The notes under the pieces: model-generated
Seen by the model: only the letters and a program-made list of their open reading frames with translations
What the model was told of the DNA's origin: nothing
Database searches by the model: none
Assembly: GCA_017455665.1 (NCBI GenBank)
Contig: JAFSZN010000004.1
Location: 1-58,149, forward strand
Source of the DNA: Lentisphaeria bacterium
GTDB taxonomy: Bacteria; Verrucomicrobiota; Lentisphaeria; Victivallales; UBA1829
DNA length: 58,149 nt
Reading direction: 5' to 3'
In this document: positions 19,232-53,248 of the stretch, piece by piece
Layout: each line of letters opens with the position of its first letter
How positions within the stretch are numbered: position 1 is the stretch's first letter
Program-made: the position numbers and the translations under genes

Positions 19232-22200
19232 TCAGGCGAGGTTGGCGAGGTTCGACCAGGTGGTGAGCTGCTTGTCGTTGATCTGCCAGTAGCCGGCGAG
19301 ACCGGAGATGTCGCTGCACCAGGCGATGTCGTCCGTGCCGTCGCCGTTGAAGTCGCCGACGCCGACGAGCTTCCATTCGTCGGTGTTCACGGCGCTGAGG
19401 ATGGACCACGAGCTGAGCCAGCCGTTTTCGACGCCCCAGATGCCGACCACGCCGACGTCGTTGATCATGGCGATGTCGTTGCAGCCGTCGTTGTTGAAGT
19501 CGCCGGAGCAGAGGTAATTCCACTCCTGCGGATTGGCGACGCTGACCATGCGCCAGTCGACCGGGTCGTCCACGATCCAGGTGCAGTACGCGTTGTAGGT
19601 CTGCTGGTCGTCGCCGACGAAGCTGTTCCGCCAGAGCATGTCGCACTTGCCGTCGGCGTTGTAGTCGCCGGTCGCGATGCATTCCCATTCGGCGGAATAG
19701 CCGTTGATGAGTGTCCACGTCACGCCGCTTTCCCAGTAGCCGAGCAGGCCGACCGTGTCGGATGCGCCCGTCGGGTTGGCGATCAGAACGTCATCCGAGC
19801 CGTTGCCGTTGAAGTCGCCGGTGCCGAGGATGTCCCAGCCCGCGCTCTTGAAGTTCAGGACCTGCGCGACGAACGTGCCGTCCGTCTGCGTCATTTCGCC
19901 GACCACATAGCCTTCGCCGTTGATCCGCAGGAAGTCGTCCTGTCCGTCGGCGTTGAAGTCGCCGATGCCAGAGATCATCCAGCTCGGATCGACCGCGAGG
20001 CCGTTGCCCCACGGAGTGCCGTCCACGTAGATCGCGGCGAAGGAACCATTGTCCGTGCTGACGACGGTCGCCATCTGGTCCGCCGAGCCGCCGTTGAAAT
20101 TGCCGGTGAGGAAGTCCGGGAGGTCGATTCTCGGGATGTAGCCGTTCGTGACGACGAACTGGCCGCCCGCGACGGCTTCGGACGCGTTTCCGGCGTAGTC
20201 GAGCGCCGTGACGGTCCAGTTCCAGGTGCCGGAGACCATTTCATCGAGCACGAGGTTCGTGCCCGGCGTGAACTCGGTCAGGACTCCGAGCTCGCCGTCC
20301 ATCCAGTAGGAGACGTTGAATCCGCAGACGCCCGCGTAGTCGTCGGTGGAGTCGGTCCAGCTCAGGGTCACGGTCGATTCATCGACTGCCGAAGCGAGGT
20401 CGGCTGCCACGGTCGGAGCCTTGTAATCAATGTTGCTGACCGTGTACGACGCGACGTCGGAGACGACGCCGTCTGCATCGGTGCCGCGGAAGAAGTATGT
20501 CGCGTTGACCTCTGCCGCAAAGACGTAGCCATCAAGCATTTTCCAGTCCTCGCCGTTGTAGCTGTATTCCGTCGAGACGACTTCCTTCGAGAAGTCCAGG
20601 GTCAGGTTGACAGCCTCCGCATTGGTGAATGTCACGCAGTCGGCGGTGACGGTCGGAGCCTCGAACCATGCGGTCGGGGCGATTTCGGATTCCACCGTGA
20701 ACACGAGGTCGAAGTCGATGACGCCGTCGTCGCGTTCGATCCGGTTCGCGGTCAGTCCGTAGCTGAATCCCGACGGCGCATTGCCTGCGAAGTGGGACAT
20801 GAATTCGATCTGATATGTGTCATCCGGATACCACACGGTCGTGAAGTAACTTTCGAAGTAGCCGTAGTCGGATCCGTCGGTGCCCAGCACGGTGAAGTAC
20901 ATGTACCCGGTTTCATTGTAGGCGTTGTGCGCCAGGACGTAAGAACCCGCCGCCTGGTTCGTGCTGTCGACGGTGATCGTGTACTTCGGGCTGCCCTGGA
21001 CCTTTTTGAAGTCGCTGAGGCGGGCGCCGTCCAGCGCGTCCTTCGTGGTGAGATTGAAGTCGACGACGCCTCCGGAGCTGACATTGATGGTTCCGCCGTC
21101 ACTGGCGATGTCCATCCTGCCGGTGACCTTGCCGCCGGAGCTGACACAGACATAGCTGCTGTTCACCATGTTGAAGCCGTCGAGAGTGCCGCCTTTATTA
21201 ACGTAGACGTCCGCACCGCCGCCGTAGTAGTACTCGCTTTCCTCATTATCGGGATCCGCCACCACGCCGAGATGGGCGTTCCTGAGAATCGAGCCGGATG
21301 ACACGTAAACGGTGGTGTCGACCGTGATGTTTTCGGCGGTGCCGCCGTTCTGCAGATACAGTGAGCCGTATTGGAAGAAGGAGTCGATGACTTTTCCGCC
21401 GCTGGTGATCGTCGTCTGGTCGTTCTGGCCGCCGGTCTGGTAGCCGGAGAGGACGCCGCCCGTGACGGAGAAGGGCTTCAGGTCGACCGCGCCGTTGATG
21501 ATAATGGTGGTGGCACCGACTGTCAGATCGACGAAGTCGTCGGTGTTGAGCCTGAGCCCGCTGATGATGACTCCGTCCTCGAATCCCGCGTGTCCGCCGT
21601 GTGCCGGACGCTTGAAGTAGCGGGTCATGTCGATGTTCGTCCCGAGCGCGCCGGAGTGGAAGTCGACGATGGACATGCCCATGCCGCCGCCGCTCGTCCA
21701 GAAGTCGCGCACGATGCCGCCGTCGTACACGTCCAGGACACCCTGTTTCATGAAATTGCTGCTGGCGATCGTGTTCCTGTGAACCGTGACGTCGCCGTTC
21801 AGCGTCATGCCGGAGAAGGTGTTCGAGGTGAACGTATGTGTTCCGAACGGAACGTCTCTCCAGTCGTCCTCAAGATAGACGGCGCCGCCATTTTCCGTGA
21901 TATTCAAAGTGTTGGCGCTTCCGCCCGCGGAAATCATGGCGCCGTTGTTGACCACGACATTCTCCACTGTGCCGTCAAGCATAAAGATCGTTGTATTGTT
22001 CAGCGTGGCGTCTGCGAAATAGCCGTCGGCCATTTTGAAATCGACGCCGCCGGAAACGCCGCTCACGACCGTCTCGCTGGTCATGTACACGGTGAGCGGA
22101 GAATCCGCATCGAGGTTCATGCCGGTGACCCGTGCGCCCGCGCTGACACGCAGGGACGCGCCCATCATGACTTCCTCCGTGACCCATTCGCCCGATTCCG

Positions 22201-23638
22201 GTTCCCACGGCACGCCGGTGTATACCTCGGAGGTGACGGGGACCGCGACGCCGGTCACGCCGTTGACGACCGCATCTTTTTCGACAGCGAAATAAGTCGC
22301 GCTCAAGGTCAGGTTTGTGACGGTTGCGCCCGCCGAAGCGGAACCGCTGCCGAATTCCTGCGTGACGTTGGCGGCGGTGCCGCCGCTCATGATGTTCAGG
22401 CTGGCATACCTGAACGTGGCGTCGGAGGTGACGCCGTTGTTGACCGTGAAATCGGCTCCGTTGTACGAGCCGGAGATCACAGTGTCCGGCGCGATGTCGA
22501 ATTGGAAGAACGTATGGTAATGATCGGAGAGTTCCGGGATGGTCGCGACGATCCCGGTGGCGGTGCCGCCGCTGTAGACGTTGATGTGGCCAGCGGAGAC
22601 TTGCGCATATCCGTATTCGTCCCGTCCGTCTTCGTCGTATCCGATCGTATAGCCGGCGACGAGGCCGCCGCTGTAGACAGTAAGGCCGCCCGCGAGCGCC
22701 GTGATGTCGGTCGCCGTGGTGCCGGAGTGGACCGTGCCGTAGGTGTAGTTGTTATAGGTCAGTCCGCTGAAAGTGTTGGACAGGAAAGTGACGGGGAAGA
22801 GGATGCCGGAGATGTAGGTCTGGGATTCGTAATCGTATCTTGAGCCGGATCCGACATAAACGTTGCCGCCGTTTTCGATGACGTTCTGCGCGCCGATGCC
22901 GGTGAGGTCTTCCGGCGCGCCGTACCAGCTGAATCCGGCGCTGAAAAAGCCGCCGTAGTTCACGGTCACGCCGTCCGCCAGGCCCTCGGTCTGGTAGAAG
23001 GAGCCGCCGCTGTTCACGACGGTGTCCTTCGCGTATGCGCCGGAAATGCTGAGCTGGCCCTGTTTGTCAACGACGGTGCCGGACACCTCGCCGCCGTAGG
23101 AGACGAACAGGTGTCCGTTGTCCGCGATCGTGACGTCGCTTGCCACGGCGCCCTGCATGACGTAGATGTCGCCGCCGTTCGTCACGGTCGCACCCTTGAT
23201 CGTCCCTCTATAGTTGGAAAGGAAACCGGTTTCGCTCACAACAGCATTGTAGACAGTGCCGCCGTAAATGTCGAAGTGTCCGCCGCTCTGCACGACCGTA
23301 TCGGACGCTATGCCGTCCTGCATCGTGAAATAGCCGCCAGAATTCACCCTGGTCAAGGTCGCGGTGCCAAAATTGAGCCACAGATATGCGCTGCCGTAAG
23401 AGCCGCGTCCGGTCAGGTCGGTGTCGACGATCCTGCCGCCGTTGTTCACATACATCTCGCAGCTGCCGCTCACCGTGTTCTTTTCCGCGAGGCTGTCCGA
23501 ATCCGTAACGGTCATCGAACCGCCGGTGACGAGGGTTTCGTTCGTGGTGCCGCCGGATACCAGGATGGAATCGTAGTAATCTCCGATGCTGAGGCCGGAA
23601 CTGACCTCGCCCGCCGTAACGACATAATTTAGGCTCAT
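19232..23638 (-). CDS. Giant AIDA-repeat / FG-GAP surface protein
   Basis: A 1468-residue repetitive protein. Residues 1 to about 870 are AIDA-type beta-solenoid repeats (GGT/NGG-rich turns such as VSGGTTNETLVTGGSMTV), as in adhesin passenger domains. A beta region (about 875-960) and two Ig/Fn3-like domains (about 985-1160) follow. The last 300 residues are FG-GAP/VCBS-like blades with six acidic loops (GDFNADGQDD, GDFNGNGSDD, GDYNADGKCD, GDFNNDGCND, GDFNGDGTDD and a GNFNGG variant) likely to bind calcium. There is no N-terminal signal peptide: MSLNYVVTAGEVSS starts straight into the repeats, with a perfect AGGAG five bases before the ATG. There is no autotransporter barrel, so type I-like export is the best guess. 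An adhesin or polysaccharide-binding role is inferred. Confidence 0.78.
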   Translation of the reverse strand: MSLNYVVTAGEVSSGLSIGDYYDSILVSGGTTNETLVTGGSMTVTDSDSLAEKNTVSGSCEMYVNNGGRIVDTDLTGRGSYGSAYLWLNFGTATLTRVNSGGYFTMQDGIASDTVVQSGGHFDIYGGTVYNAVVSETGFLSNYRGTIKGATVTNGGDIYVMQGAVASDVTIADNGHLFVSYGGEVSGTVVDKQGQLSISGAYAKDTVVNSGGSFYQTEGLADGVTVNYGGFFSAGFSWYGAPEDLTGIGAQNVIENGGNVYVGSGSRYDYESQTYISGILFPVTFLSNTFSGLTYNNYTYGTVHSGTTATDITALAGGLTVYSGGLVAGYTIGYDEDGRDEYGYAQVSAGHINVYSGGTATGIVATIPELSDHYHTFFQFDIAPDTVISGSYNGADFTVNNGVTSDATFRYASLNIMSGGTAANVTQEFGSGSASAGATVTNLTLSATYFAVEKDAVVNGVTGVAVPVTSEVYTGVPWEPESGEWVTEEVMMGASLRVSAGARVTGMNLDADSPLTVYMTSETVVSGVSGGVDFKMADGYFADATLNNTTIFMLDGTVENVVVNNGAMISAGGSANTLNITENGGAVYLEDDWRDVPFGTHTFTSNTFSGMTLNGDVTVHRNTIASSNFMKQGVLDVYDGGIVRDFWTSGGGMGMSIVDFHSGALGTNIDMTRYFKRPAHGGHAGFEDGVIISGLRLNTDDFVDLTVGATTIIINGAVDLKPFSVTGGVLSGYQTGGQNDQTTITSGGKVIDSFFQYGSLYLQNGGTAENITVDTTVYVSSGSILRNAHLGVVADPDNEESEYYYGGGADVYVNKGGTLDGFNMVNSSYVCVSSGGKVTGRMDIASDGGTINVSSGGVVDFNLTTKDALDGARLSDFKKVQGSPKYTITVDSTNQAAGSYVLAHNAYNETGYMYFTVLGTDGSDYGYFESYFTTVWYPDDTYQIEFMSHFAGNAPSGFSYGLTANRIERDDGVIDFDLVFTVESEIAPTAWFEAPTVTADCVTFTNAEAVNLTLDFSKEVVSTEYSYNGEDWKMLDGYVFAAEVNATYFFRGTDADGVVSDVASYTVSNIDYKAPTVAADLASAVDESTVTLSWTDSTDDYAGVCGFNVSYWMDGELGVLTEFTPGTNLVLDEMVSGTWNWTVTALDYAGNASEAVAGGQFVVTNGYIPRIDLPDFLTGNFNGGSADQMATVVSTDNGSFAAIYVDGTPWGNGLAVDPSWMISGIGDFNADGQDDFLRINGEGYVVGEMTQTDGTFVAQVLNFKSAGWDILGTGDFNGNGSDDVLIANPTGASDTVGLLGYWESGVTWTLINGYSAEWECIATGDYNADGKCDMLWRNSFVGDDQQTYNAYCTWIVDDPVDWRMVSVANPQEWNYLCSGDFNNDGCNDIAMINDVGVVGIWGVENGWLSSWSILSAVNTDEWKLVGVGDFNGDGTDDIAWCSDISGLAGYWQINDKQLTTWSNLANLA

Positions 23639-43206: not shown

Positions 43207-44880
43207 ATGAAAAACCGTCTTCGCTTTTTTTCCGTTTTCGCCGGATGTTTCACTCTTCTTCTGATCGGGACGGCGTTCGTCGTCCGCGCGGATGAGAAGG
43301 ACGACCTCGAAAAACAAAGGAGAGACGAGCTTAAGAGGGTCGAAGCAATGCTCAAGGCGCAGATCGACGCGCTGATCGCGAAGGAGGCGGATCCGAACGA
43401 CGCGAAGTCGATCTACGAGCTCGGCGTCCGCTATCTGAAAGAAGAAAAGGATCCTCTTGTCGGATGGGACCTGTTCCAGCGGGCCGCCGAAATGGGCAAT
43501 GCCGAAGCTCGGTACGCGCTCGGCATGGAGTACCTCGAGCATATTCAGGAGATCCTGCCCCGCGCCGCGGCGAAGGCGGAGGGCGCCAAGTGGCTTGAGA
43601 AGGCCGCCGAACAGGGGCATGTCGGAGCGCAGCTGGCGCTCGCGAAGTGCTACTCGACGGGCAAAGGCGTGAAAAAGGATGAGGCGAAAGCGTTCGAAAT
43701 CTACCGGAAGGCGGCGGATGCCGGCAGCGCGGAAGCGATGTACGAACTCCGCGATTTTTATAATCTTGGCTGGGGCGGCGTGACGGTCGACAGGGCCAAG
43801 GCGGCGGAACTGCTCCGCAAGTCCGCGGAAAAAGGCTATGTCGAAGCGCAGAGGTCGTTGGGGCTTGTCTGTCAGCACGGATACAACACCCCCATCGATC
43901 TGCCGGAGGCAGTCAAATGGTACACTCTGGCCGCGGCGCAGGGCGATTCCAGCTCGAAAGCGTATCTCGAACAGCTGAAGGACGTCATCCCCCTGCTGGA
44001 ACCGGCGGAAAATGGCGACGCCGAAACGCAGTACAAACTTGCCCATTATATTGCCGATCACGACGAGATCGGAACTATCTCCGGCCATTCGCGTTCGGAC
44101 GCGATCCGGAAATGGCTGCTCAAGGCGGCGGAGAACGGGCATCCCGCCGCGCAGCTCGAACTGGCGGAGTCGTACGCTTATTTCGAAAATGGCAACTGGT
44201 GGATTGCGGGGGTCAATGATTTCGCCGAGGCCGCCAAATGGTACCGGAAGGCGGCGGACCAGGGGGATCCCATGGCGCAGGGGATGCTCGGCTGGCTCTA
44301 CGCGACCGGACGCGGCGTGGACAAGGATTTGAAAGCCGCTGTCGAATGGTTCCGCAAGGCCGCGGAGCAGGGCAACGCCGAAGCGCAGTTCGGCATGGGC
44401 CTCAGCATCCGGGACGACTGGCTGGAACCTTACCGGGAGGACCGGGACTGGAAAACGGTCCTCGACTGGTACATCAAAGCGGCGGAGAGCGGCATGAAGC
44501 ATGAACTGCCCGAACTGGAGAACAAAAGAGACTACACCGGGCTGCAGTGCAAGATCGCCTACATGTACCGGAACCGGAACAACTACATCCGGCACTGCAG
44601 GGAGAATCATATCCGGTTTGACGAGTCCGAGCCTGTGGACCAATACCCCGCCGAGGTCGTCAAATGGTTCCGGAAAGCCGCCGAGGCGGGCGATGACGAG
44701 GGGCATTTCGAACTTGTCGAACTTGCCGCCGAACAGGACAGCGAGGCGGCGAAGGACGCGCTCCGCCAGCTCGCGGAGAACGGTGACGGATACGCGCGGA
44801 GCGTCGTGAAGGAACACGGCTGGGACAAGCCGGAACAGGCTGGATCGGAACGGAAGGAAGCGTCGCCCGACGGGGAATGA
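43207..44880 (+). CDS. Exported Sel1-like (TPR) repeat protein
   Basis: A 557-residue protein with a Sec signal peptide (MKNRLRFFSVFAGC, core, VVRA) and about twelve Sel1-type helical repeats: short AAExGxAxAQxxLG-like units such as AAEMGNAEARYALGMEYLE, WLEKAAEQGHVGAQLALAKC and WFRKAAEQGNAEAQFGMGL. Such solenoids mediate protein contacts, in some bacteria linked to secretion or regulation, but no partner is visible. It is monocistronic, with its own promoter and terminator, and is followed by an LRR protein gene with a similar promoter. Confidence 0.85.
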   Translation: MKNRLRFFSVFAGCFTLLLIGTAFVVRADEKDDLEKQRRDELKRVEAMLKAQIDALIAKEADPNDAKSIYELGVRYLKEEKDPLVGWDLFQRAAEMGNAEARYALGMEYLEHIQEILPRAAAKAEGAKWLEKAAEQGHVGAQLALAKCYSTGKGVKKDEAKAFEIYRKAADAGSAEAMYELRDFYNLGWGGVTVDRAKAAELLRKSAEKGYVEAQRSLGLVCQHGYNTPIDLPEAVKWYTLAAAQGDSSSKAYLEQLKDVIPLLEPAENGDAETQYKLAHYIADHDEIGTISGHSRSDAIRKWLLKAAENGHPAAQLELAESYAYFENGNWWIAGVNDFAEAAKWYRKAADQGDPMAQGMLGWLYATGRGVDKDLKAAVEWFRKAAEQGNAEAQFGMGLSIRDDWLEPYREDRDWKTVLDWYIKAAESGMKHELPELENKRDYTGLQCKIAYMYRNRNNYIRHCRENHIRFDESEPVDQYPAEVVKWFRKAAEAGDDEGHFELVELAAEQDSEAAKDALRQLAENGDGYARSVVKEHGWDKPEQAGSERKEASPDGE

Positions 44881-44917
44881 CGTTTCCCCGATTCCTTCCC
44901 GGTCATAAAAACAGTCG

Positions 44918-44955
44918 CGGCACGCATCACACTTTGGCGATACGTGCCGTTCTTT
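44918..44955 (+). terminator. Putative terminator after the Sel1-repeat gene
   Basis: A 7-bp stem CGGCACG/CGTGCCG (44918-44924 with 44943-44949) has an 18-base loop and is followed by TTCTTT. It is weaker than the other terminators in the window. Confidence 0.45.
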
Positions 44956-45024
44956 CGCGTCGGCGGCAGGGATTCCGCCGGGCATTGACGCGCGGAAAAA
45001 CACTTCCTTTTTTTAGAAAAACAC

Positions 45025-45053
45025 TTGACAATCCGGGGAAAAGGATGTATTGT
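45025..45053 (+). promoter_or_regulatory. Promoter for the LRR gene
   Basis: Consensus TTGACA (45025-45030), 17-base spacer, TATTGT (45048-45053), about 110 bases before the ATG. It is the best -35 box in the window. Confidence 0.6.
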
Positions 45054-45164
45054 CTTTTTGCTGGACAACCCGAAGCCCCGCGAGAGATGGCCGCTGCGTC
45101 CGGCGGCGGGAAGAAACAAGCAGGTATCGCGGGCCGCACAACGGAAAAAAAGAAGGACGCCACG

Positions 45165-47255
45165 ATGAAAGATGAAAATAATATGCCGCGCGTGTCGATC
45201 ATCGACCGGTTGAGGCCGGTCGCCGCGATCCTTCTGCCGATGCTGGTGCTGTACGTGCTGTTTTGGGCGTTCACGCAGCACATGTACTACTACGCCGTCC
45301 CGGCGGGGACGACGGTCGTCGACGCGTCCGTGATCGAAACGTATTCGCCGCTGGGGAAATACATCGACGGGCTGAAGTGGACGAAGACGCATAAGTGGAT
45401 CAAGCCGTACCTGCCGTACCGGCATTACATCATCCCGGACGGCGCGACGGAGATCGCCGAGAATGCGTTCCGGGGCCACAAGGTCGTTGTCAGCGTCCGG
45501 ATCCCGGACAGCGTCACGAAGATCGCGTCACGGGCGTTTCAGGACTGCGAGAGACTGGAGTCCGTCACCCTGTCGGACGGTCTCACGGAGATCCCTGCAA
45601 GCGTCTTTTCGGGATGCGCCTCCCTGGTGTCCGTCCGGATCCCGGACAGCGTGAAGAAGATCGGCGACAACGCATTCGAGAAGTGTTCCTCGTTGCGGTC
45701 GGTCGACCTCCCGGACGGCGTGAAGACGATCGACTACTGCGCGTTCGAGAAGTGTACCTCGTTGCGTTCGGTCGGCCTCCCGGACAGCCTGGAGACCATC
45801 AGGTTCGGCTTGTTCCGTGATTGCGCCAACCTGAAGAGCATCCGGATCCCCGATCAAGTAAAGTCCTTGGAAGACTGCGCGTTCGAGCATTGCGCCGGGC
45901 TGAAAAGCGTCCGGCTCCCGGACAGCCTGGAGAAGATCGGCGACCACGCGTTTTTGGGGTGCACCTCCCTGCGCGAGCTGGAGATCCCCGACAGTGTGCT
46001 CTGGATCGAGTTCGAAGCATTCCAGGACTGCACCGGCCTGGAGGAGGTCCGGCTGCCCGCCTCGCTGGGGCGGTCCGAACCGGTCAGCGTCTTCAGGGAG
46101 CCTCCGTCGTTCCAGGGGATGCCGGAGGTGATATGGGAGACTTACGCGAGCATGGGGCTGCATCATGGTCTCTTTAAGGGCTGCACCTCGCTGAAAAAGG
46201 TCGTGGTCCCGGAGGGGATCCAGTATATCGAATACGATGTCTTTTCCGGCTGCACGGCGCTGAAGGAGGTCAATCTCCCGGACAGCTTGACGAAGATCGA
46301 ATATCACGCGTTCCGGGACTGCCGCAGCCTGCCGCCCGTGACCATCGGGAAGAACGTGAATCGCATCGAAGGCGGCGCGTTCTCCGGGAGCGGCTGCCGC
46401 CTCTCGGTCCCGGACGACCACCCGCTGTACACGGTCGAGGACGGCGTTTTCTATTCCAAAGACGGCAAAACGCTGTTGGTCTGCGCCTCGGAACCCGCCG
46501 CGCCGTTTGTCGTCCCGCCGCGCGTGCGGGAGATCGCGCCAAAGGCGTTCGAGCATTGCGCGAGCCTGACGGACATCCGTCTGCCGGAGGGGGTGGAAAC
46601 GGTCCCCGCGGGGTGTTTCAGGGGGTGTGCCGGACTGATACACGTCGGACTGCCGGACACGCTGACGAAGATCGATGTGTACGCGTTCGGGGAGTGCACC
46701 GCACTGAAACAGATCGAACTGCCGCAATCGCTGAAGGAAATCGGCGCGAGCGTGTTCGAATGGGGCGCGGTCATGCCGGAAATCGTGATCCCGCCGGGCG
46801 TGACGAAGCTCAGCGAAAACGCGTTTTTCTGCAGCTACGTGGAGTCGGTCCGGCTTCCGCCCGGTATGAAGACGATCCCCAAAGAGGCGTTCCGGCAGTG
46901 TATGTCCCTGAAGGAGATCGTCATTCCGGACGGCGTGACGAAGATCGAAGACAGGGCGTTTTTTGCCTGCTCCAAAATGGAACGCGTTACGCTCCCGGAC
47001 AGCCTGAAGGAGATCGGCGAGGAGGCGTTCGCCCAGTGCGAAGAGCTGAAACGCATCACCATCCCGGACAGCGTCACGAAGATCGGTCCGAAGGCGTTTC
47101 GCAGCTGCTGGACCCTGGGAGAGGTCGAGCTGCCGGACGGCGCGGCGGATATCGACGAAACGGCATTCGAAGCTACGCCCTATCGGAACAGAAAAAAGAC
47201 TCCGGCGAAACAGGAGCGTGTTCCCGAGGACCCGGATGAGCTGTTTTTTGAATAG
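45165..47255 (+). CDS. Membrane-anchored leucine-rich repeat protein (BspA/LRR_5 type)
   Basis: A 696-residue protein. An N-terminal hydrophilic stretch and one membrane helix (AAILLPMLVLYVLFWAF, about 19-36) are followed by more than 20 BspA-type LRR_5 units of 20-25 residues, e.g. IPDSVTKIASRAFQDCERLE and LPDSLKEIGEEAFAQCEEL. Each has a C-x-x-L core and an IPDxVTxIxxxAF strand. The tail is acidic and hydrophilic. LRR_5 proteins are often cell-surface or extracellular binding proteins; here the N-terminal helix would anchor the LRR solenoid outside the inner membrane. AAGGA precedes the ATG. Confidence 0.85.
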   Translation: MKDENNMPRVSIIDRLRPVAAILLPMLVLYVLFWAFTQHMYYYAVPAGTTVVDASVIETYSPLGKYIDGLKWTKTHKWIKPYLPYRHYIIPDGATEIAENAFRGHKVVVSVRIPDSVTKIASRAFQDCERLESVTLSDGLTEIPASVFSGCASLVSVRIPDSVKKIGDNAFEKCSSLRSVDLPDGVKTIDYCAFEKCTSLRSVGLPDSLETIRFGLFRDCANLKSIRIPDQVKSLEDCAFEHCAGLKSVRLPDSLEKIGDHAFLGCTSLRELEIPDSVLWIEFEAFQDCTGLEEVRLPASLGRSEPVSVFREPPSFQGMPEVIWETYASMGLHHGLFKGCTSLKKVVVPEGIQYIEYDVFSGCTALKEVNLPDSLTKIEYHAFRDCRSLPPVTIGKNVNRIEGGAFSGSGCRLSVPDDHPLYTVEDGVFYSKDGKTLLVCASEPAAPFVVPPRVREIAPKAFEHCASLTDIRLPEGVETVPAGCFRGCAGLIHVGLPDTLTKIDVYAFGECTALKQIELPQSLKEIGASVFEWGAVMPEIVIPPGVTKLSENAFFCSYVESVRLPPGMKTIPKEAFRQCMSLKEIVIPDGVTKIEDRAFFACSKMERVTLPDSLKEIGEEAFAQCEELKRITIPDSVTKIGPKAFRSCWTLGEVELPDGAADIDETAFEATPYRNRKKTPAKQERVPEDPDELFFE

Positions 47256-47318: not shown

Positions 47319-47741
47319 TTACCGGGTGTTGTACTGTTCGTCGTAGGTACGGACGGCGACGTTGTGGAGGCCGCGGAAGGAGCAGAGGTCGAGGATTTCG
47401 ACGACGCGGCTGAACGCGACCGCCTTGTCGCAGTCCACGCGGATGCGGCGGTCCTGGTTCTCCTCGGAGAGCTCCAGCAGGATCTGGTGGAGCTCGGAGA
47501 TCGTGACCGGCCTGCCGTTGTAGAACACCATTTTCTCCTTGTTGACGCCGATGACCATGGTGTCGTTGTCCGGCGGGACGTCGAGCGAGGACGTGGAGAC
47601 GGGCAGGTCGATGTCGATGTCGCGGTTTTCCTTCTTGGCGACCGTGGTGATCAGGAAAAAGATGAGGAGGAGGAAGACGCAGTCGATCAGCGAAGACATG
47701 CCGATCTCGAGCTTATCCTCCGATGAACGTCTGATGCGCAT
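47319..47741 (-). CDS. exbD: ExbD/TolR family protein (second copy in the operon)
   Basis: A 140-residue biopolymer-transport protein. It has a short basic cytoplasmic N-terminus (MRIRRSSEDKLEIGMSSL), one membrane helix beginning with the proton-conducting aspartate (LIDCVFLLLIFFLITTV), and a periplasmic domain ending RVVEILDLCSFRGLHNVAVR. It is the last gene of the exbD-coiled-coil-exbB-exbD operon, 24 bases after exbB. The presence of two different ExbD proteins suggests a heteromeric stator plug. Confidence 0.92.
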   Translation of the reverse strand: MRIRRSSEDKLEIGMSSLIDCVFLLLIFFLITTVAKKENRDIDIDLPVSTSSLDVPPDNDTMVIGVNKEKMVFYNGRPVTISELHQILLELSEENQDRRIRVDCDKAVAFSRVVEILDLCSFRGLHNVAVRTYDEQYNTR

Positions 47742-47765
47742 GTGCGGCGGTCCCGTGGTTCTGCG

Positions 47766-48512
47766 TTACTTCTTCTGCGCGTCCAGCGCGGCGAACATGG
47801 CCTCGAGGTTTTCCTCGATGGCGAGTTCGGCGATGGAGAGTTTCTGCTTCAGGTAGTGGTACGCGCCGAGGGCGGGGATGGCGAGCACGAGGCCCATGTC
47901 GGTTGTGATGAGCGCCTTGCTGATGGAGTCGGCGAGGAGCGCGGCGTCGCCGGTGTCGCCGAGGATGGCGACCTTGGAGAACGCCTCGATCATGCCGATC
48001 ACGGTGCCGAGCAGACCGAGCATCGGCGCCATGGTGGCGATGATCGCCAGCGGATAACTGCGCTGTCTGTGGCGTTCGATCGCGCGGGCGGCGGCGTCCG
48101 CCACGGCGGTCTGGAGACGGGCTTCGTCCATGCCGGGATGATCCACGATGTACGCGCCGGCGTCGGCGAGGATGCTGGGCTTCGCCTCGGCTTCCTTGCG
48201 GATCGCGTCGGCGTCATCCTTCGCGATGGCGTCGGCGAAGAAATCGGCATAGTAGGCGGGCGCGAGGTGTTTTTTGCGCATGCGGATGAGGCGTTCAACG
48301 AGGAATCCGATGGCGGCGGCGCTGAGGAGCAGGAGCACGGCGGAGGTCATGCCGCCGTTGATGATCTCCTGGATCCAGTCGATCGTCATTTCATCGGCGG
48401 GCTCGGAGGCGGTTTCCGCAACGGTTTCGGCGGCGTTCTGGGCGGCAAGGAATCCGGGGAGGCAGAAGAGCGCCGCGGCGGAGAGGATCGAAGCACGGAT
48501 GGGAAGTTTCAT
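47766..48512 (-). CDS. exbB: ExbB/TolQ/MotA family proton channel
   Basis: A 248-residue member of the ExbB family with an N-terminal signal peptide (MKLPIRASILSAAALFC..FLAAQ) and a short periplasmic stretch before the first helix (TSAVLLLLSAAAIGFLVERL). The signature region IIATMAPMLGLLGTVIGMIEAF and SKALITTDMGLVLAIPALGAY form the second and third helices. It couples proton flow to ExbD and the energy transducer (family knowledge). The start at 48512 has AAAGG six bases upstream. Confidence 0.93.
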   Translation of the reverse strand: MKLPIRASILSAAALFCLPGFLAAQNAAETVAETASEPADEMTIDWIQEIINGGMTSAVLLLLSAAAIGFLVERLIRMRKKHLAPAYYADFFADAIAKDDADAIRKEAEAKPSILADAGAYIVDHPGMDEARLQTAVADAAARAIERHRQRSYPLAIIATMAPMLGLLGTVIGMIEAFSKVAILGDTGDAALLADSISKALITTDMGLVLAIPALGAYHYLKQKLSIAELAIEENLEAMFAALDAQKK

Positions 48513-48560
48513 GGAGAACCTTTCGTAGTTTTTTATGTTATTCATATTTCGTGATAAACA

Positions 48561-51422
48561 TCAGGGGAGTCTGCGGCGCGCGGAGGGCGTCGAGGGAGCG
48601 GCGTCAGGGCGGGCGGTCTGCGTCTGAGGGGCGTTGCGGCGCTGTTCGGCGGCGCGTTTCGCGGCGGCCGCGGCGGCGGGGGTCTCCTCGCGGACCATGA
48701 CGAACGAGAACTGGCATTCGTCGGGCCCGTTTTCCACGCAGAAGAGGATGGTGTTCCAGCCCTTGCGGAAGTGGATGTGGACGATGTTTTCGTGGAGGCC
48801 CCAGGTGCTCAGCTCGTCGTCGAACCAGACCTGCTCGCCGTTGATCCAGAGGACGCTGGCGTCGTCGGATCCGATCATGGCGAGGACGTCGGTATCCTCC
48901 TCGAAATGAACGTCGGTATAGGCGTAGTAGATCGCGTTGTCCATCTTGTCCGGCGTGCGGATGCAGGTCGTGTCGGTCTGAACGTAGCGCCAGCGGAGGC
49001 GAATGGGCTTCTGCGTGACCGGGTCGATCTTGCCGTCATACTCGGCGTCGAGGTCGATCCTGGTCTCGGGCTCCCGTTTCACGCGGTCCGCGATGTGCGT
49101 GAACCTGCTGCCGTCGTATTTGCCTTCCCACGGGCCGATCACGTACCAGGAGTCGATGAAGACGAATCCGTGGCGGGCGGCGTTTTTGCTGACGCGTCGT
49201 CCGGGGACGGATTCCGCGATGATGGCGTAGTCGGCGGGCTCGGAGGCGATGCGCTTGCTGTCGGAGTTGCCGACGGGGCTGTAATAGTAGCCGCCGAACT
49301 CGAAGTCGAAGTCGCCGCGGAACGCGATGCCGCCTCCGCCGTAGGCGCCGCGGTTGTTGCCGAAGCTGGAACCGTTTCCGTTGCCCTGACCCTGGCTCTG
49401 GCCTTGTCCCTGGCTTTGTCCCTGGCCCTGCTGTCCGGCGCGCTCCACGCCCTCGCGGCCCATCCGGCCGAGCTGGCGCATCATGTCGGCGAGACTGCCC
49501 TGTCCCTGGCCCTGGCGGCCGCCCTGCATGCCGGCCTGCTGGTTGCGCATGGCGCGCTGCTGGATGGCGGAGAAGAGGCGTTCGGCGGAGAGCGGGAGGT
49601 TGATGCCCGCCATGCGCGCGAGGCTGTTCGCGCGGGACGAAAGCGAATCGGCGGCGTCCTGGAGCGCGGTCATCTGTTCGAGCGCGCGGAGGAGCTGTTC
49701 CTTGGTCATGTACTGTCCGCCGCCCTGCGAACCGCCCTGTCCCTGTCCGTCGCCCTGTTCGCCGTTCTGTCCCTGCTGCCCGCCCTGCTGGCTCGCGTTC
49801 TGCGATTCGCTCTGCGGATCGTTCCTGAGCGCTTCGAGGAGCTTGCGGAGGTACTGTTCGGCCTCGACCGTGGTGAATTCGTCGCGGTAACGGCCTTCCA
49901 TCGCCTTGTCGAGGAAGCTTTCGGCGTCGGCGTCCATCGCCTTGGCGGCCTCCTGGATGTCGGCGAATTCCGGATCGATGTTATAAATCCACTCGGACAG
50001 CTTCGAGCTGATCTCGTTGCGGTGGTTCAGCGCGGCCAGGTAGGCGGTGTTCGCGAGGTCCGGAAGCTTGCGCTGGACGGTCGTGTTCGTGTCCTTGAGC
50101 TGACGGTCGAATCCCTGCATGTCGCGGGACGCGGTCTGCAGGAACGAGAGGTCCTGCCGCGCGGTGTCGGTGTCGTTTGCCTCGACGGCTTTCCTGATCG
50201 CCTCGTAGGCGCGCTGCGCCTGCTCCATCGTGTGCTTCGCGTTCTCGTCGACCTCGTTCACCAGATAAATCTCGAAGGACGGCACGTCGTATTCGAAATC
50301 GTAATCGTAAACATCATCGTCATAGACGACCGCCGGCCCGATGATGCCGGGTCTGGGGAGGGTGCGCTGACGGCGCGGACGGTTCTTGCGTTCCTCTTCC
50401 GCCTTCTTGATGCGTTCGCGGCTTTCCTCGGCGGTCTTCTTCGCCTGCTCGTAGGCTTCCTGCGTGAGGCGCAGCACCTCTTCGGCGGCGTCGAGGATCT
50501 TCTGCGGATCCTCGGCTGCGCCGTCGTTCTGCGCCAGGTCGCGCGAGAAATGCTCCATGGAGGTCTGGTCCATGTTTTTGTTGATGGAGTCCATCGACCG
50601 GATGGCGTTCTGGTAGGCGTTCAGCTCGGCGTACTTCGTATCGAGCTGTTCCTCCTTCGCCGCCATGAAGTCCTTCAGCTGCTGGAGCGTGGCGTCGACG
50701 GGCGGCATTTCGGGCGGGGTGTTCATGATGCCGATGTCGTATACGCCGGACATGTCGCCGCTGAGGATGGAGTCGATCATGCGTTCGAGTTCGAGCGACT
50801 GCCATTCGGCGGTGGCGGAGTCGACGCCGTAGTCGAGGTAGCTGGACGGGTTCGCGCGGAACTTTTCGCTGTTCGCCTTCATGGTCTCCAGCTGGCCGCG
50901 GAAGACGGGGATCAGGTCGTCGCCCGGATGCTGTTTCAGCTGCTGGCGGATGTCGCCGGCGATGCGCGCGTTCTCCGTGAACGGCACGACATAATCGAAT
51001 TCGTTGGACAGGTTTTCGGCGAGGTCGAACAGGCGTTCGTACGCCTCCTCCATCGGGTCGCGCAGTTCGGAGTAGATCTCCTTCAGTTCCTCCTTGCGCT
51101 CCTCCATCTTCTCAAGGGTCTCCTCGACCTCCTCCAGTTTCTTGCGGATCTCCTTTTCCTTGCGTTTCTGGACGCGGTCGCGGATCTTCTTGAGTTCGGC
51201 GGGCGGGGCTTCCTTCTTGATCTTCTCGGGGTCGTTCTTGTGGGCTTCGCGCTTCGCCTCGTTCTCCTGTTTCTGCTTCATCGCCTCTTCGAGCGAATAC
51301 CGGCTGTAGCGGATGAAATCGAGCTGCCAGGCTGCGACGATCGCGCCGAGGTAGCAGAGGAGCGTGAGGCCCCAGATGATGGCCGTCGTGCGGCCGGACT
51401 GCATTGTTCGTTTGCTTTTCAT
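48561..51422 (-). CDS. 953-residue membrane-anchored coiled-coil protein in the ExbB/ExbD operon
   Basis: I recognise no named family. Layout: a short cytoplasmic start, one membrane helix (about 13-32, AIIWGLTLLCYLGAIVAAW), a highly charged helical/coiled-coil stretch (about 43-130, Lys/Glu-rich), more helical regions to about 540, Gln/Gly-rich low-complexity linkers (about 540-566 and 662-695), and a C-terminal beta-sandwich (about 745-912) with GSDDASVLWINGEQVWFDDE and FRKGWNTILFCVENGPDE, like carbohydrate-binding beta domains. An Ala/Pro/Arg-rich tail follows. Topology and operon position suggest an energy transducer analogous to TonB/TolA, but this is inference and no TonB C-terminal domain is seen. 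GAGG lies eight bases before the ATG. Confidence 0.75.
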   Translation of the reverse strand: MKSKRTMQSGRTTAIIWGLTLLCYLGAIVAAWQLDFIRYSRYSLEEAMKQKQENEAKREAHKNDPEKIKKEAPPAELKKIRDRVQKRKEKEIRKKLEEVEETLEKMEERKEELKEIYSELRDPMEEAYERLFDLAENLSNEFDYVVPFTENARIAGDIRQQLKQHPGDDLIPVFRGQLETMKANSEKFRANPSSYLDYGVDSATAEWQSLELERMIDSILSGDMSGVYDIGIMNTPPEMPPVDATLQQLKDFMAAKEEQLDTKYAELNAYQNAIRSMDSINKNMDQTSMEHFSRDLAQNDGAAEDPQKILDAAEEVLRLTQEAYEQAKKTAEESRERIKKAEEERKNRPRRQRTLPRPGIIGPAVVYDDDVYDYDFEYDVPSFEIYLVNEVDENAKHTMEQAQRAYEAIRKAVEANDTDTARQDLSFLQTASRDMQGFDRQLKDTNTTVQRKLPDLANTAYLAALNHRNEISSKLSEWIYNIDPEFADIQEAAKAMDADAESFLDKAMEGRYRDEFTTVEAEQYLRKLLEALRNDPQSESQNASQQGGQQGQNGEQGDGQGQGGSQGGGQYMTKEQLLRALEQMTALQDAADSLSSRANSLARMAGINLPLSAERLFSAIQQRAMRNQQAGMQGGRQGQGQGSLADMMRQLGRMGREGVERAGQQGQGQSQGQGQSQGQGNGNGSSFGNNRGAYGGGGIAFRGDFDFEFGGYYYSPVGNSDSKRIASEPADYAIIAESVPGRRVSKNAARHGFVFIDSWYVIGPWEGKYDGSRFTHIADRVKREPETRIDLDAEYDGKIDPVTQKPIRLRWRYVQTDTTCIRTPDKMDNAIYYAYTDVHFEEDTDVLAMIGSDDASVLWINGEQVWFDDELSTWGLHENIVHIHFRKGWNTILFCVENGPDECQFSFVMVREETPAAAAAAKRAAEQRRNAPQTQTARPDAAPSTPSARRRLP

Positions 51423-51437
51423 GTCAGTGCCTCGCTT

Positions 51438-51917
51438 TTAATCCGATGAACCGGGGATGTAGAACCGGGATTCGCGGTAGTCGCGCATGCGGACGTCGAC
51501 CTTGTTCAGATGGTTGATCTGGAGCTTGTCGAGCATGTCGATCACGGTCTGGAACTCGACGTCGGGGTCGGCGTACAGGCGCACGTTGATCTCCTCGCCC
51601 GCGCCCTGCGTCATGCGGCCCAGGTTCTCCACGAACTTGTCCACGTCGCCGATGACCCGGAAATCCGGGCGTCCATCCTGCAGGCGGCGTTCCGCCGAGT
51701 AGTAGCGGCCGTCCTTGCCGATCGCGAGGATCACGCGGCGCGCGTCCATGCGTTCGGAGATGGTCACGTCGGGGTCCGGGACCTCGATGGGGATCTGTTT
51801 TTCGAGCTTCTTCATCATGGTGGTGATGAGGAAGAAGATGAGGAGAAGGAAGACGCAGTCGATGAGGGGCGACATTTCGAGCGTGACGTCGTCATCGTCT
51901 TTTTTTCGGATTCTCAT
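51438..51917 (-). CDS. exbD: ExbD/TolR family protein (first gene of operon)
   Basis: A 159-residue ExbD homologue: charged start (MRIRKKDDDDVTLEMSPL), helix with the conserved Asp (LIDCVFLLLIFFLITTMM), and a periplasmic domain about 20 residues longer than that of the downstream copy, ending MLDKLQINHLNKVDVRMRDY. The stop lies 15 bases before the start of the coiled-coil gene. A TATAAT (51964-51959 on the minus strand) lies upstream without a convincing -35, so a nonstandard or activator-dependent promoter is possible. Confidence 0.92.
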   Translation of the reverse strand: MRIRKKDDDDVTLEMSPLIDCVFLLLIFFLITTMMKKLEKQIPIEVPDPDVTISERMDARRVILAIGKDGRYYSAERRLQDGRPDFRVIGDVDKFVENLGRMTQGAGEEINVRLYADPDVEFQTVIDMLDKLQINHLNKVDVRMRDYRESRFYIPGSSD

Positions 51918-52162: not shown

Positions 52163-53248
52163 TTATTCCGCGTCGGTTTTCTCTTCGCCTTCAGCGGGCT
52201 CGACGGATTCGAGCGCCTGCCACTCGCGCTGTTTCGCCTGCTCCTCGGCGTTCGGGAACGCGGAGATGAAGCCGTCGCCGGGCTTGGATCCTTTCGGACG
52301 GGGACCGCCGTTGAAGCCGAAGCCTTTTTCATACTGGTCGGCGGTGACGGGGCCGACGGGCTGGATGCCGAGCTTGATGTCGGACTGCTTGCCGCGGACC
52401 TGGGAGAAAAGCCATTTCCATGTATTCGGGTTGGAATACGCTCTGTCCCAGCAGTTGTGGCCGACGCCGAAGAACTCGCGCAGATAGACGTTCGTGTTGC
52501 CTGCCGCCCTCATGGTGATGAACATCCAGCGGGCGAGCTGGGGCGGGACGGTCGTGTCGTCGCTGCCGTGGAAGATCAGGACGGGCAGGTCTTTCATCTT
52601 TTCGGCGCGGTTCGGGTCGCTGCCGCCGCAGCACGGGATGCCGGCGGCGAAGATGTCGGTGCCGTAGCGCGCCAGGAGGTCCCAGCAGCCGTAGCCGCCC
52701 ATGGAGAGGCCGGTCACATAAACGCGGTCCTTGTCGGCGTCAAACTCTTCGATCTTCTTTTCGATCAGTACGGGGATCATGCCGAGCGCCTGGTAGGGTT
52801 CCTCCATGAGGTCGCCCATGGCGCCGCCGCGGTGCAGCGGGGCCCAGACCTGGTCGCTCGGGCATTCCGGCGCGAGCACGATGACTTTGTGCTTGCCATC
52901 ACGCATCTGCTTCACGATCTCGGGCACGGCGAGACGGAGCTGCGCGAGGTTTTCCTCGCCGCGTTCGCCGAAACCGTGCAGGAAGACGAGGATCGAGAAA
53001 TCGCCGGGCTCGTCCGCGTTGTACACGCCCTGGCAGTAACGCAGTTCGCCGTTGCAGTTTTTCAGGACTTCCTGCTTCATTTCCAGCGCGTTCAGCGTCC
53101 GGATCTCGTTGGCGAATCTCTGCTGGATCTGTTCGGAGGGTTCCTCCATCGGGGAGATGACGGCGGTTTTCAGGGCGGGATCGGAGGAGCAGGCGGCTCC
53201 GATGGCGGCGAGGGCGGCGCATCCGAGCACGAGCAAATGTTTTTTCAT
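52163..53248 (-). CDS. Lipoprotein alpha/beta-hydrolase (esterase/dienelactone hydrolase-like)
   Basis: A 361-residue lipoprotein with signal MKKHLLVLGCAALAAIGAAC (lipid Cys20). It is an alpha/beta hydrolase with FLHGFGERGEENL (oxyanion), nucleophile Ser in TGLSMGGYGCWDL (about 181), Asp in IFHGSDDTTVP and His in FGVGHNCWDRAY. It resembles PHB-depolymerase/feruloyl esterase-like proteins attached to the cell surface, probably acting on glycan esters (inference). GAAAGGA precedes the ATG. The C-terminal 60 residues are hydrophilic and disordered-looking (EGEEKTDAE). Confidence 0.85.
   Translation of the reverse strand: MKKHLLVLGCAALAAIGAACSSDPALKTAVISPMEEPSEQIQQRFANEIRTLNALEMKQEVLKNCNGELRYCQGVYNADEPGDFSILVFLHGFGERGEENLAQLRLAVPEIVKQMRDGKHKVIVLAPECPSDQVWAPLHRGGAMGDLMEEPYQALGMIPVLIEKKIEEFDADKDRVYVTGLSMGGYGCWDLLARYGTDIFAAGIPCCGGSDPNRAEKMKDLPVLIFHGSDDTTVPPQLARWMFITMRAAGNTNVYLREFFGVGHNCWDRAYSNPNTWKWLFSQVRGKQSDIKLGIQPVGPVTADQYEKGFGFNGGPRPKGSKPGDGFISAFPNAEEQAKQREWQALESVEPAEGEEKTDAE

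Follow-up and report, generated by a model that had tools for sequence, protein, structure and literature searches.

Few trans-envelope machines powered by motors of the ExbBD type have been characterised, namely Ton, Tol, Gld/Por, Agl and Mot. Among them, the AglRQS motor of Myxococcus is built from one TolQ-type and two TolR-type subunits. The role of the transmembrane (TM) histidine and of the ExbD dimer is a long-standing question in the Ton/Tol field. Cryo-EM structures of TonB and TolA show that a Ser-His pair contacts ExbB/TolQ (PMC12215075). The nearest described system to the one reported here is that of the vWA-tipped transducers of 2025. These are anchored in the inner membrane by a TM helix of the SHLS type, which a linker joins to a globular tip unrelated to that of TonB or TolA; the tip is a von Willebrand A (Rossmann) domain and a TPR gene lies alongside (Williams-Jones et al., 2025; PMC12204202).

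The family described here follows the same logic as the vWA transducers, with an anchor, a linker and a globular tip on a motor, but it ends in a beta-sandwich of the PA14 kind, lacks a linked TPR gene and, in most members with two ExbDs, has lost the histidine. PA14, jelly-roll, lectin and Lentisphaerae are not mentioned in the main text of PMC12204202. With TonB-ExbB-ExbD the family shares the ExbB/ExbD motor, the linker and a globular C-terminal domain, and its one-ExbD class also the single TM helix with Ser-x3-His. The class to which our locus belongs differs from TonB in having two ExbD lineages and a long helical arm, and in lacking a TonB_C domain and, throughout the genus, a receptor. 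TolQ-TolR-TolA has a helical periplasmic arm in common with the family, and its motor genes come from one superfamily with those described here. The family is real, its members are probably PMF-driven transducers, and we found no description of it in the open literature searched, where no paper joins a PA14 domain with ExbB, ExbD and TolR.

The window, i.e. the whole stretch of DNA that was analysed, comprises 58,149 nucleotides from a Lentisphaeria bacterium. Positions 47319-51917 (minus strand) form a compact operon in the order exbD1 - 953-aa protein - exbB - exbD2, with spacers of 15, 15 and 24 bp in gene order. An earlier note, made from the sequence alone, had reported two ExbD genes, an ExbB gene and a middle protein of 953 residues here; all of them are present on the minus strand where it had placed them. 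The genes of the operon and the gene upstream of it are:

51438..51917, minus strand: exbD1, 159 aa (Pfam ExbD, E=2.2e-19), with the proton-pathway Asp20 within ...SPLIDCVFLLLIFFLITT...

48561..51422, minus strand: gene of the proposed transducer, 953 aa, with TM helix, helical arm, Gln/Gly linker and PA14-like C-terminal domain

47766..48545, minus strand: exbB, 259 aa (Pfam MotA_ExbB, E=1e-26), with a signal-peptide-like N-terminus

47319..47741, minus strand: exbD2, 140 aa (Pfam ExbD, E=2e-26), with Asp20 within ...SSLIDCVFLLLIFFLITT...

52163..53248, minus strand: alpha/beta-hydrolase (esterase-like) gene with a lipoprotein-like signal, a possible accessory gene, 245 bp from the operon

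The motor proteins belong to the ExbB/TolQ and ExbD/TolR families with Pfam scores above the cut-offs. The TM aspartate Asp20 is kept in both ExbDs and the pore threonine motifs are kept in ExbB (GLLGTV and TTxxGL, here TTDMGL); therefore the motor, judged by its family, should be proton-competent. The operon is present in all 13 genomes of the genus, in which the 12 other transducer orthologues are 55-98% identical to that of the window, and every complete contig shows the gene order of the window. Among named genomes, rumen Lentisphaeria MAGs are the nearest. Directly upstream, the hydrolase gene is found in all genus members except the most distant one (G006). It is the only near-constant same-strand neighbour; outside the genus it is not linked. 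Scans for promoters and terminators were uninformative: four promoter-like sites were returned where 1.1 are expected, of which one (53318-53291) immediately precedes the hydrolase gene, and terminators were no more numerous than in shuffles.

Further genes surround the operon in the window. An lptF-type gene (Pfam) lies near it. Convergent with exbD2 (44877-47255, plus strand) lies the gene of a BspA-type leucine-rich-repeat protein that has a TM helix at its N-terminus; in the other genus members that were read, this gene does not adjoin the operon. At 19232-23638 (minus strand) a 1468-aa repetitive, secreted-looking protein with GG..NETLVTGGSMTV-type repeats is encoded; some genus members (L038, L043) have relatives of it directly next to their exb operon. 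No polysaccharide locus is located in the operon's own neighbourhood.

The 953-aa protein can be divided as follows:

51324..51386, minus strand: N-terminal TM helix, residues about 13-33, the sole TM helix (hydropathy, motif scan, alignment)

50385..51320, minus strand: charged helical/coiled-coil arm, residues 35-346 (AF2 secondary structure, low confidence)

49824..50276, minus strand: second helical region, residues 383-533 (AF2, local pLDDT mostly about 80-90)

49242..49817, minus strand: Gln/Gly-rich, mostly disordered linker, residues 536-727 (pLDDT <50 over most of it)

48687..49220, minus strand: PA14/CBM-like beta-sandwich, residues 735-912 (AF2 pLDDT 88.8, pTM 0.87)

48861..48866, minus strand: Asp853-Asp854, invariant in 54/54 aligned domains

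The full-length AF2 model has a pLDDT of 62 and thus low confidence. As it is poor as a tertiary model, only its secondary structure was used and no tertiary claims are made from it. Helices span residue 10 to about 543, charged ones up to about 346 and further ones from 383, with ~480 residues being helical, and in this model the beta-rich domain covers residues 738-911. The arm consists to 39% of K/R/E/D (residues 35-350), the linker to 39% of Q+G (residues 536-727), and a short Pro/Ala/Arg tail follows the C-terminal domain. Hydropathy, AF2 and composition agree with the earlier description of one N-terminal membrane helix, a long charged coiled coil and Gln/Gly linkers. The length of 953 aa is confirmed as well, but its excess over TonB, which had been pointed out as an oddity, does not define the family, the members of which range from about 430 to 1050 aa. 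The window TM helix carries T20-x3-Y24 at the position of Ser-x3-His in TonB and TolA (S20-x3-Y24 in L074). A D-box after the TM helix is not claimed, the post-TM segments not being a clean fit to the published pattern.

Pfam contains no family matching the 953-aa protein, and NCBIfam, PHROGs, PADLOC and PDB sequence searches gave nothing usable; the PADLOC models (Zorya and other defence systems) did not match at E<=1e-3. Family and sequence searches are thus in line with the view that the protein does not belong to a known unrelated family. The protein is not a TonB: no TonB_C domain was found by Pfam or NCBIfam, the tip is a PA14-like sandwich, and receptors are absent from the genus. The TonB-dependent receptor barrel PF00593 was missing in 13/13 genus genomes and was found in the positive controls; the TonB_C matches in the genus are weak and located away from the operon. 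No outer-membrane receptor gene was seen beside the operon either, so that the earlier note was right about the missing domain and about the missing receptor. TolA was rejected as identity too, since a TolA/TonB-like tip and linkage to tolB or pal are both lacking.

The tip was modelled with AF2 as a domain on its own, using an alignment of 54 homologues, and the model is almost all beta. Its best Foldseek matches in the PDB are carbohydrate-associated beta-sandwiches: PA14 enzymes of GH3/GH31, Epa1/Cea1 adhesins, CBM35/36/6 and the lectin MpPA14 (E about 1e-4 to 1e-3, TM-score about 0.3-0.46). PA14, GLEYA and F5/8-type-C proteins were matched in the viral library. Model and matches bear out the carbohydrate-binding-like beta-sandwich that had been proposed for the C-terminus, and they rule out a vWA-fold tip. 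PDB profile matches of the tip to beta-propellers are spurious, spanning about 30 residues. Pfam PA14 (PF07691) does not match the window protein at the curated score and matches 14 of the 54 homologues weakly (best E 4.6e-4). With PA14 lectins (MpPA14, Epa/Flo adhesins) and CBM35 the tip shares the beta-sandwich fold class and an adjacent Asp-Asp pair, at a sequence identity of about 10% and a TM-score of about 0.44. Unlike these proteins, it is fused to a motor-linked membrane arm, and its sugar binding is putative. PA14-like folds are found also in protein-binding proteins. The invariant pair Asp853-Asp854 is the same dipeptide as in the DcisD Ca2+/sugar motif of PA14 lectins, where two consecutive aspartates with a cis peptide hold the sugar-contacting Ca2+ (PMC8092209; PMC6308950). 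Fold and dipeptide make glycan binding by the tip a good lead; due to the low TM-scores, about 0.4-0.5 for the best structural matches, and the weak Pfam PA14 matches it is a lead rather than a result.

To follow the family, about 85,000 species genomes were scanned once with the patterns [ST]WY[VI]IGP[WF] and W[IL]NG[EKQ][QDL]VW. Because these patterns came from the tip only, linkage to exb genes was not built into the scan. Eighty tip loci were kept. In 73 of them exbB and exbD adjoin, four have exbD only and lie at contig ends, and in three without exb genes the ORF runs off the contig. Altogether, the tip gene is linked to exb genes in 77/80 loci, the remaining three being cut by contig ends; together with the order and identity kept throughout the genus, this is far beyond chance. 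The hosts belong to at least seven phyla: Verrucomicrobiota, Lentisphaerota, Kiritimatiellota, Planctomycetota, Bacteroidota (Bacteroides, Paraprevotella, Sphingobacterium, Salegentibacter, Sunxiuqinia), Burkholderiales (Massilia, Duganella), a Nitrospirota and a KSB1. Conservation of the linkage in relatives, as the earlier note would have it, was thus tested and holds far beyond Lentisphaerota. The usual order is exbB-exbD-exbD-transducer or exbB-exbD-transducer, and the window order D1-T-B-D2 is a derived rearrangement of B-D1-D2-T. Among the distant loci no non-exb neighbour (TPR, receptor, lipoprotein) recurs across taxa, so that the cassette seems to need no further gene. In the broad phylum to which the window belongs, 22 of 289 genomes match the domain profile at E<=1e-38 (next best match 3e-26), which makes the module patchy, unlike a housekeeping system. 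All five loci read for close homologues (E<=1e-38) are exb-linked; none of the five read for distant domain homologues (E about 1e-14 to 1e-26) is, and these look like secreted proteins.

Some loci show variants. In Massilia and Kiritimatiellae (L126, L132, L136, L137) one exbB-exbD pair is followed by two transducer genes in tandem, and two loci (L150, L151) have the order exbB-transducer-exbD. In L154 (3349-5226) a signal-peptide-like N-terminus replaces the TM anchor of a tip-bearing protein, which is encoded 1.3 kb downstream of exbB-exbD.

The loci fall into two classes that differ in the TM helix. In counts that are inflated by related copies, above all the 12 genus members, and are given without a test statistic, the histidine is present in 23/23 intact transducers of one-exbD loci (21 as Ser-x3-His, two as Ala-x3-His), and Ser-x3-His in 5/46 transducers of two-exbD loci (four planctomycete, one Nitrospirota). 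Many two-exbD transducers have Gln, Asn, Glu or Tyr at the histidine position; that of the window has Thr-x3-Tyr. In the ExbD tree, ExbD1 of the window groups with the first ExbDs of two-ExbD loci (support 100/99) and ExbD2 with the second ones (84/89). The proteins of one-ExbD loci fall outside both lineages, except for L109, where the gene caller merged the pair. The tip tree places the two-ExbD transducers in one clade (100/99, all bootstraps), separate from the exb-free domain relatives. In these phylogenies ExbD1 and ExbD2 are separate ancient lineages. Taken together, the trees suggest one exbD duplication, with the pair kept since, that accompanies the frequent loss of the histidine. 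The pair in this class would be heteromeric and asymmetric. For the heteromeric stator proposed by the earlier note, the tree adds an ancient and always paired ExbD1/ExbD2 split; the heterodimer itself we infer.

We regard the operon as a self-contained Exb/Tol-type PMF machine with the 953-aa protein as force transducer, with a probability of about 75%. The energy-transducer reading given earlier survives the two refutation tests that were run: there is no match to an unrelated family and the exb linkage is conserved. In addition, SxxxH is present in the one-ExbD members. In such a machine an ExbB pentamer, as expected from the family, would enclose a proton-conducting pair made up of ExbD1 and ExbD2, probably in one copy each. 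The TM helix of the transducer would dock on ExbB like those of TonB and TolA; with the histidine replaced by Tyr in the window, it is not certain that docking uses the known contact. The periplasm would be spanned by the helical arm and the flexible Gln/Gly linker, the PA14-like beta-sandwich would grip a partner located at the outer membrane or cell wall, and proton flow would pull or shift this partner. Complex formation, force direction and partner are inferred. If the protein is a transducer, an outer-membrane protein is the partner with somewhat less than even odds, a glycan (a polysaccharide taken up or held, or an envelope glycan) is a slightly less probable partner, and anything else would be unexpected. 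A more far-reaching proposal appears doubtful to us. It states that the tip is calcium-dependent and acts directly on glycans, as a distinct cross-phylum class, and that an obligate ExbD1-ExbD2 heterodimer makes the two-ExbD motor asymmetric and replaces the role of the TonB/TolA histidine, holding and orienting the transducer instead of the ExbB-His contact.

What the machine does can be read in several ways. The tip might bind glycan chains or an outer-membrane carrier while the motor draws glycans across the outer membrane or periplasm, in lineages without SusCD/TonB receptors or with both. The PA14/CBM fold with its invariant DD, the lack of TonB-dependent receptors in the genus and the esterase-like lipoprotein gene upstream are consistent with such a polysaccharide capture, as are pectin/arabinan-type enzyme genes at distant two-ExbD loci. 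Their 85 flanking genes include GH43 (five), GH28 (three), GH88 (two), DUF2264 (two), LacI (four) and rhamnogalacturonase/pectate-lyase-like matches (three), where a single protein may be counted under several models; in 84 control genes taken from module-bearing genomes none of these families reached two, with three sulfatases and single GH2/GH31/GH42 matches. This apparent enrichment is no more than suggestive, because the control is small, unmatched and mostly from one genome. Moreover, several loci are surrounded by housekeeping genes (Massilia), linked transport genes are lacking, and the tip faces the periplasm and would meet glycans only past the outer membrane. We treat polysaccharide uptake as a tentative possibility. 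The PA14-like fold could as well bind peptidoglycan sugars, and a tip bound to peptidoglycan or to an outer-membrane protein would allow a constriction or tethering role as in Tol-Pal, with the motor holding the outer membrane to the cell or redistributing a lipoprotein. The TolA-like topology of helical arm and globular tip on an exb/tol motor and the lptF-type gene nearby in the window would fit. However, the genome contains a separate Tol-like set on another contig (tolQ, tolR and a TolA-like 323-aa protein with a C-terminal TonB_2 domain). The family also differs from Tol-Pal in its tip fold, in the lack of linked TolB, Pal or CpoB genes and in its patchy occurrence in the 289 phylum genomes, and we consider this role unlikely.

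Two further readings concern the design of the machine. One ExbB-type and two different ExbD/TolR-type proteins correspond to the composition of AglRQS, and long coiled-coil arms would suit a moving linker, which could connect the motor to a moving adhesin or track as in the surface-motility or secretion motors AglRQS and GldLM. Yet no glt, agl, gld or por gene is conserved beside the modules, and at the distant loci neither agl/glt linkage nor any conserved neighbour besides the exb genes was found. The one-ExbD sisters share the transducer, so that the design can do without an ExbD pair. Rumen bacteria and Bacteroides, which are not known as gliders, are among the hosts, and we know of no counterpart of the PA14-tipped transducer in AglRQS. 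This reading is very improbable. It is hardly less improbable that the middle protein shares the operon without being a transducer, and serves as a scaffold or other structural protein or as a third subunit of a plug-like kind. The window TM helix without the canonical histidine would agree with this, but N-terminal TM helix, C-terminal tip and motor adjacency are kept across phyla, the sister class keeps SxxxH, and tips and ExbDs split into the same two classes. These findings favour the force transducer.

As such, the PA14-tipped family would add an ExbBD-type machine with a tip of its own. Its culturable hosts Bacteroides, Paraprevotella, Cerasicoccus and Massilia make direct testing possible. 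The one-ExbD class, with the histidine kept, and the two-ExbD class, with the histidine mostly lost, provide a natural contrast on the roles of histidine and ExbD dimer in force transmission. If the tip binds glycans, the family may be relevant to the way in which large polysaccharides are dealt with in the PVC group and in rumen anaerobes that lack TonB receptors.

The genome of the window has nine matches to the ExbD domain, despite having no PF00593, and an OmpA-domain gene is located elsewhere in it. In the genus a second, diverged module occurs, consisting of exbB (415 aa), two exbD genes and a transducer of about 540 aa. In the window's own genome it lies on contig C14 (L047, 8214-11912) in the order exbB-exbD-exbD-transducer. 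In the trees, both ExbDs and the tip of this module fall within Bacteroidota homologues, with which its ExbB shares a long N-terminal extension (in Bacteroides, some 200 residues precede the first TM helix). This suggests that the module may have been acquired from Bacteroidota in the rumen. Two more sets were seen. On C138 (L054, 6212-12420) a 1167-aa TPR protein, a 274-aa protein, exbB, exbD and exbD are encoded without an adjacent transducer, which resembles the TPR-tolQ-tolR-tolR arrangement described for vWA transducers. On C159 (L055, 2446-7133) a 933-aa TPR-like protein, exbB and exbD are encoded together with a 262-aa protein that has a TM helix at its N-terminus, matches no Pfam family and might be a further type of transducer.
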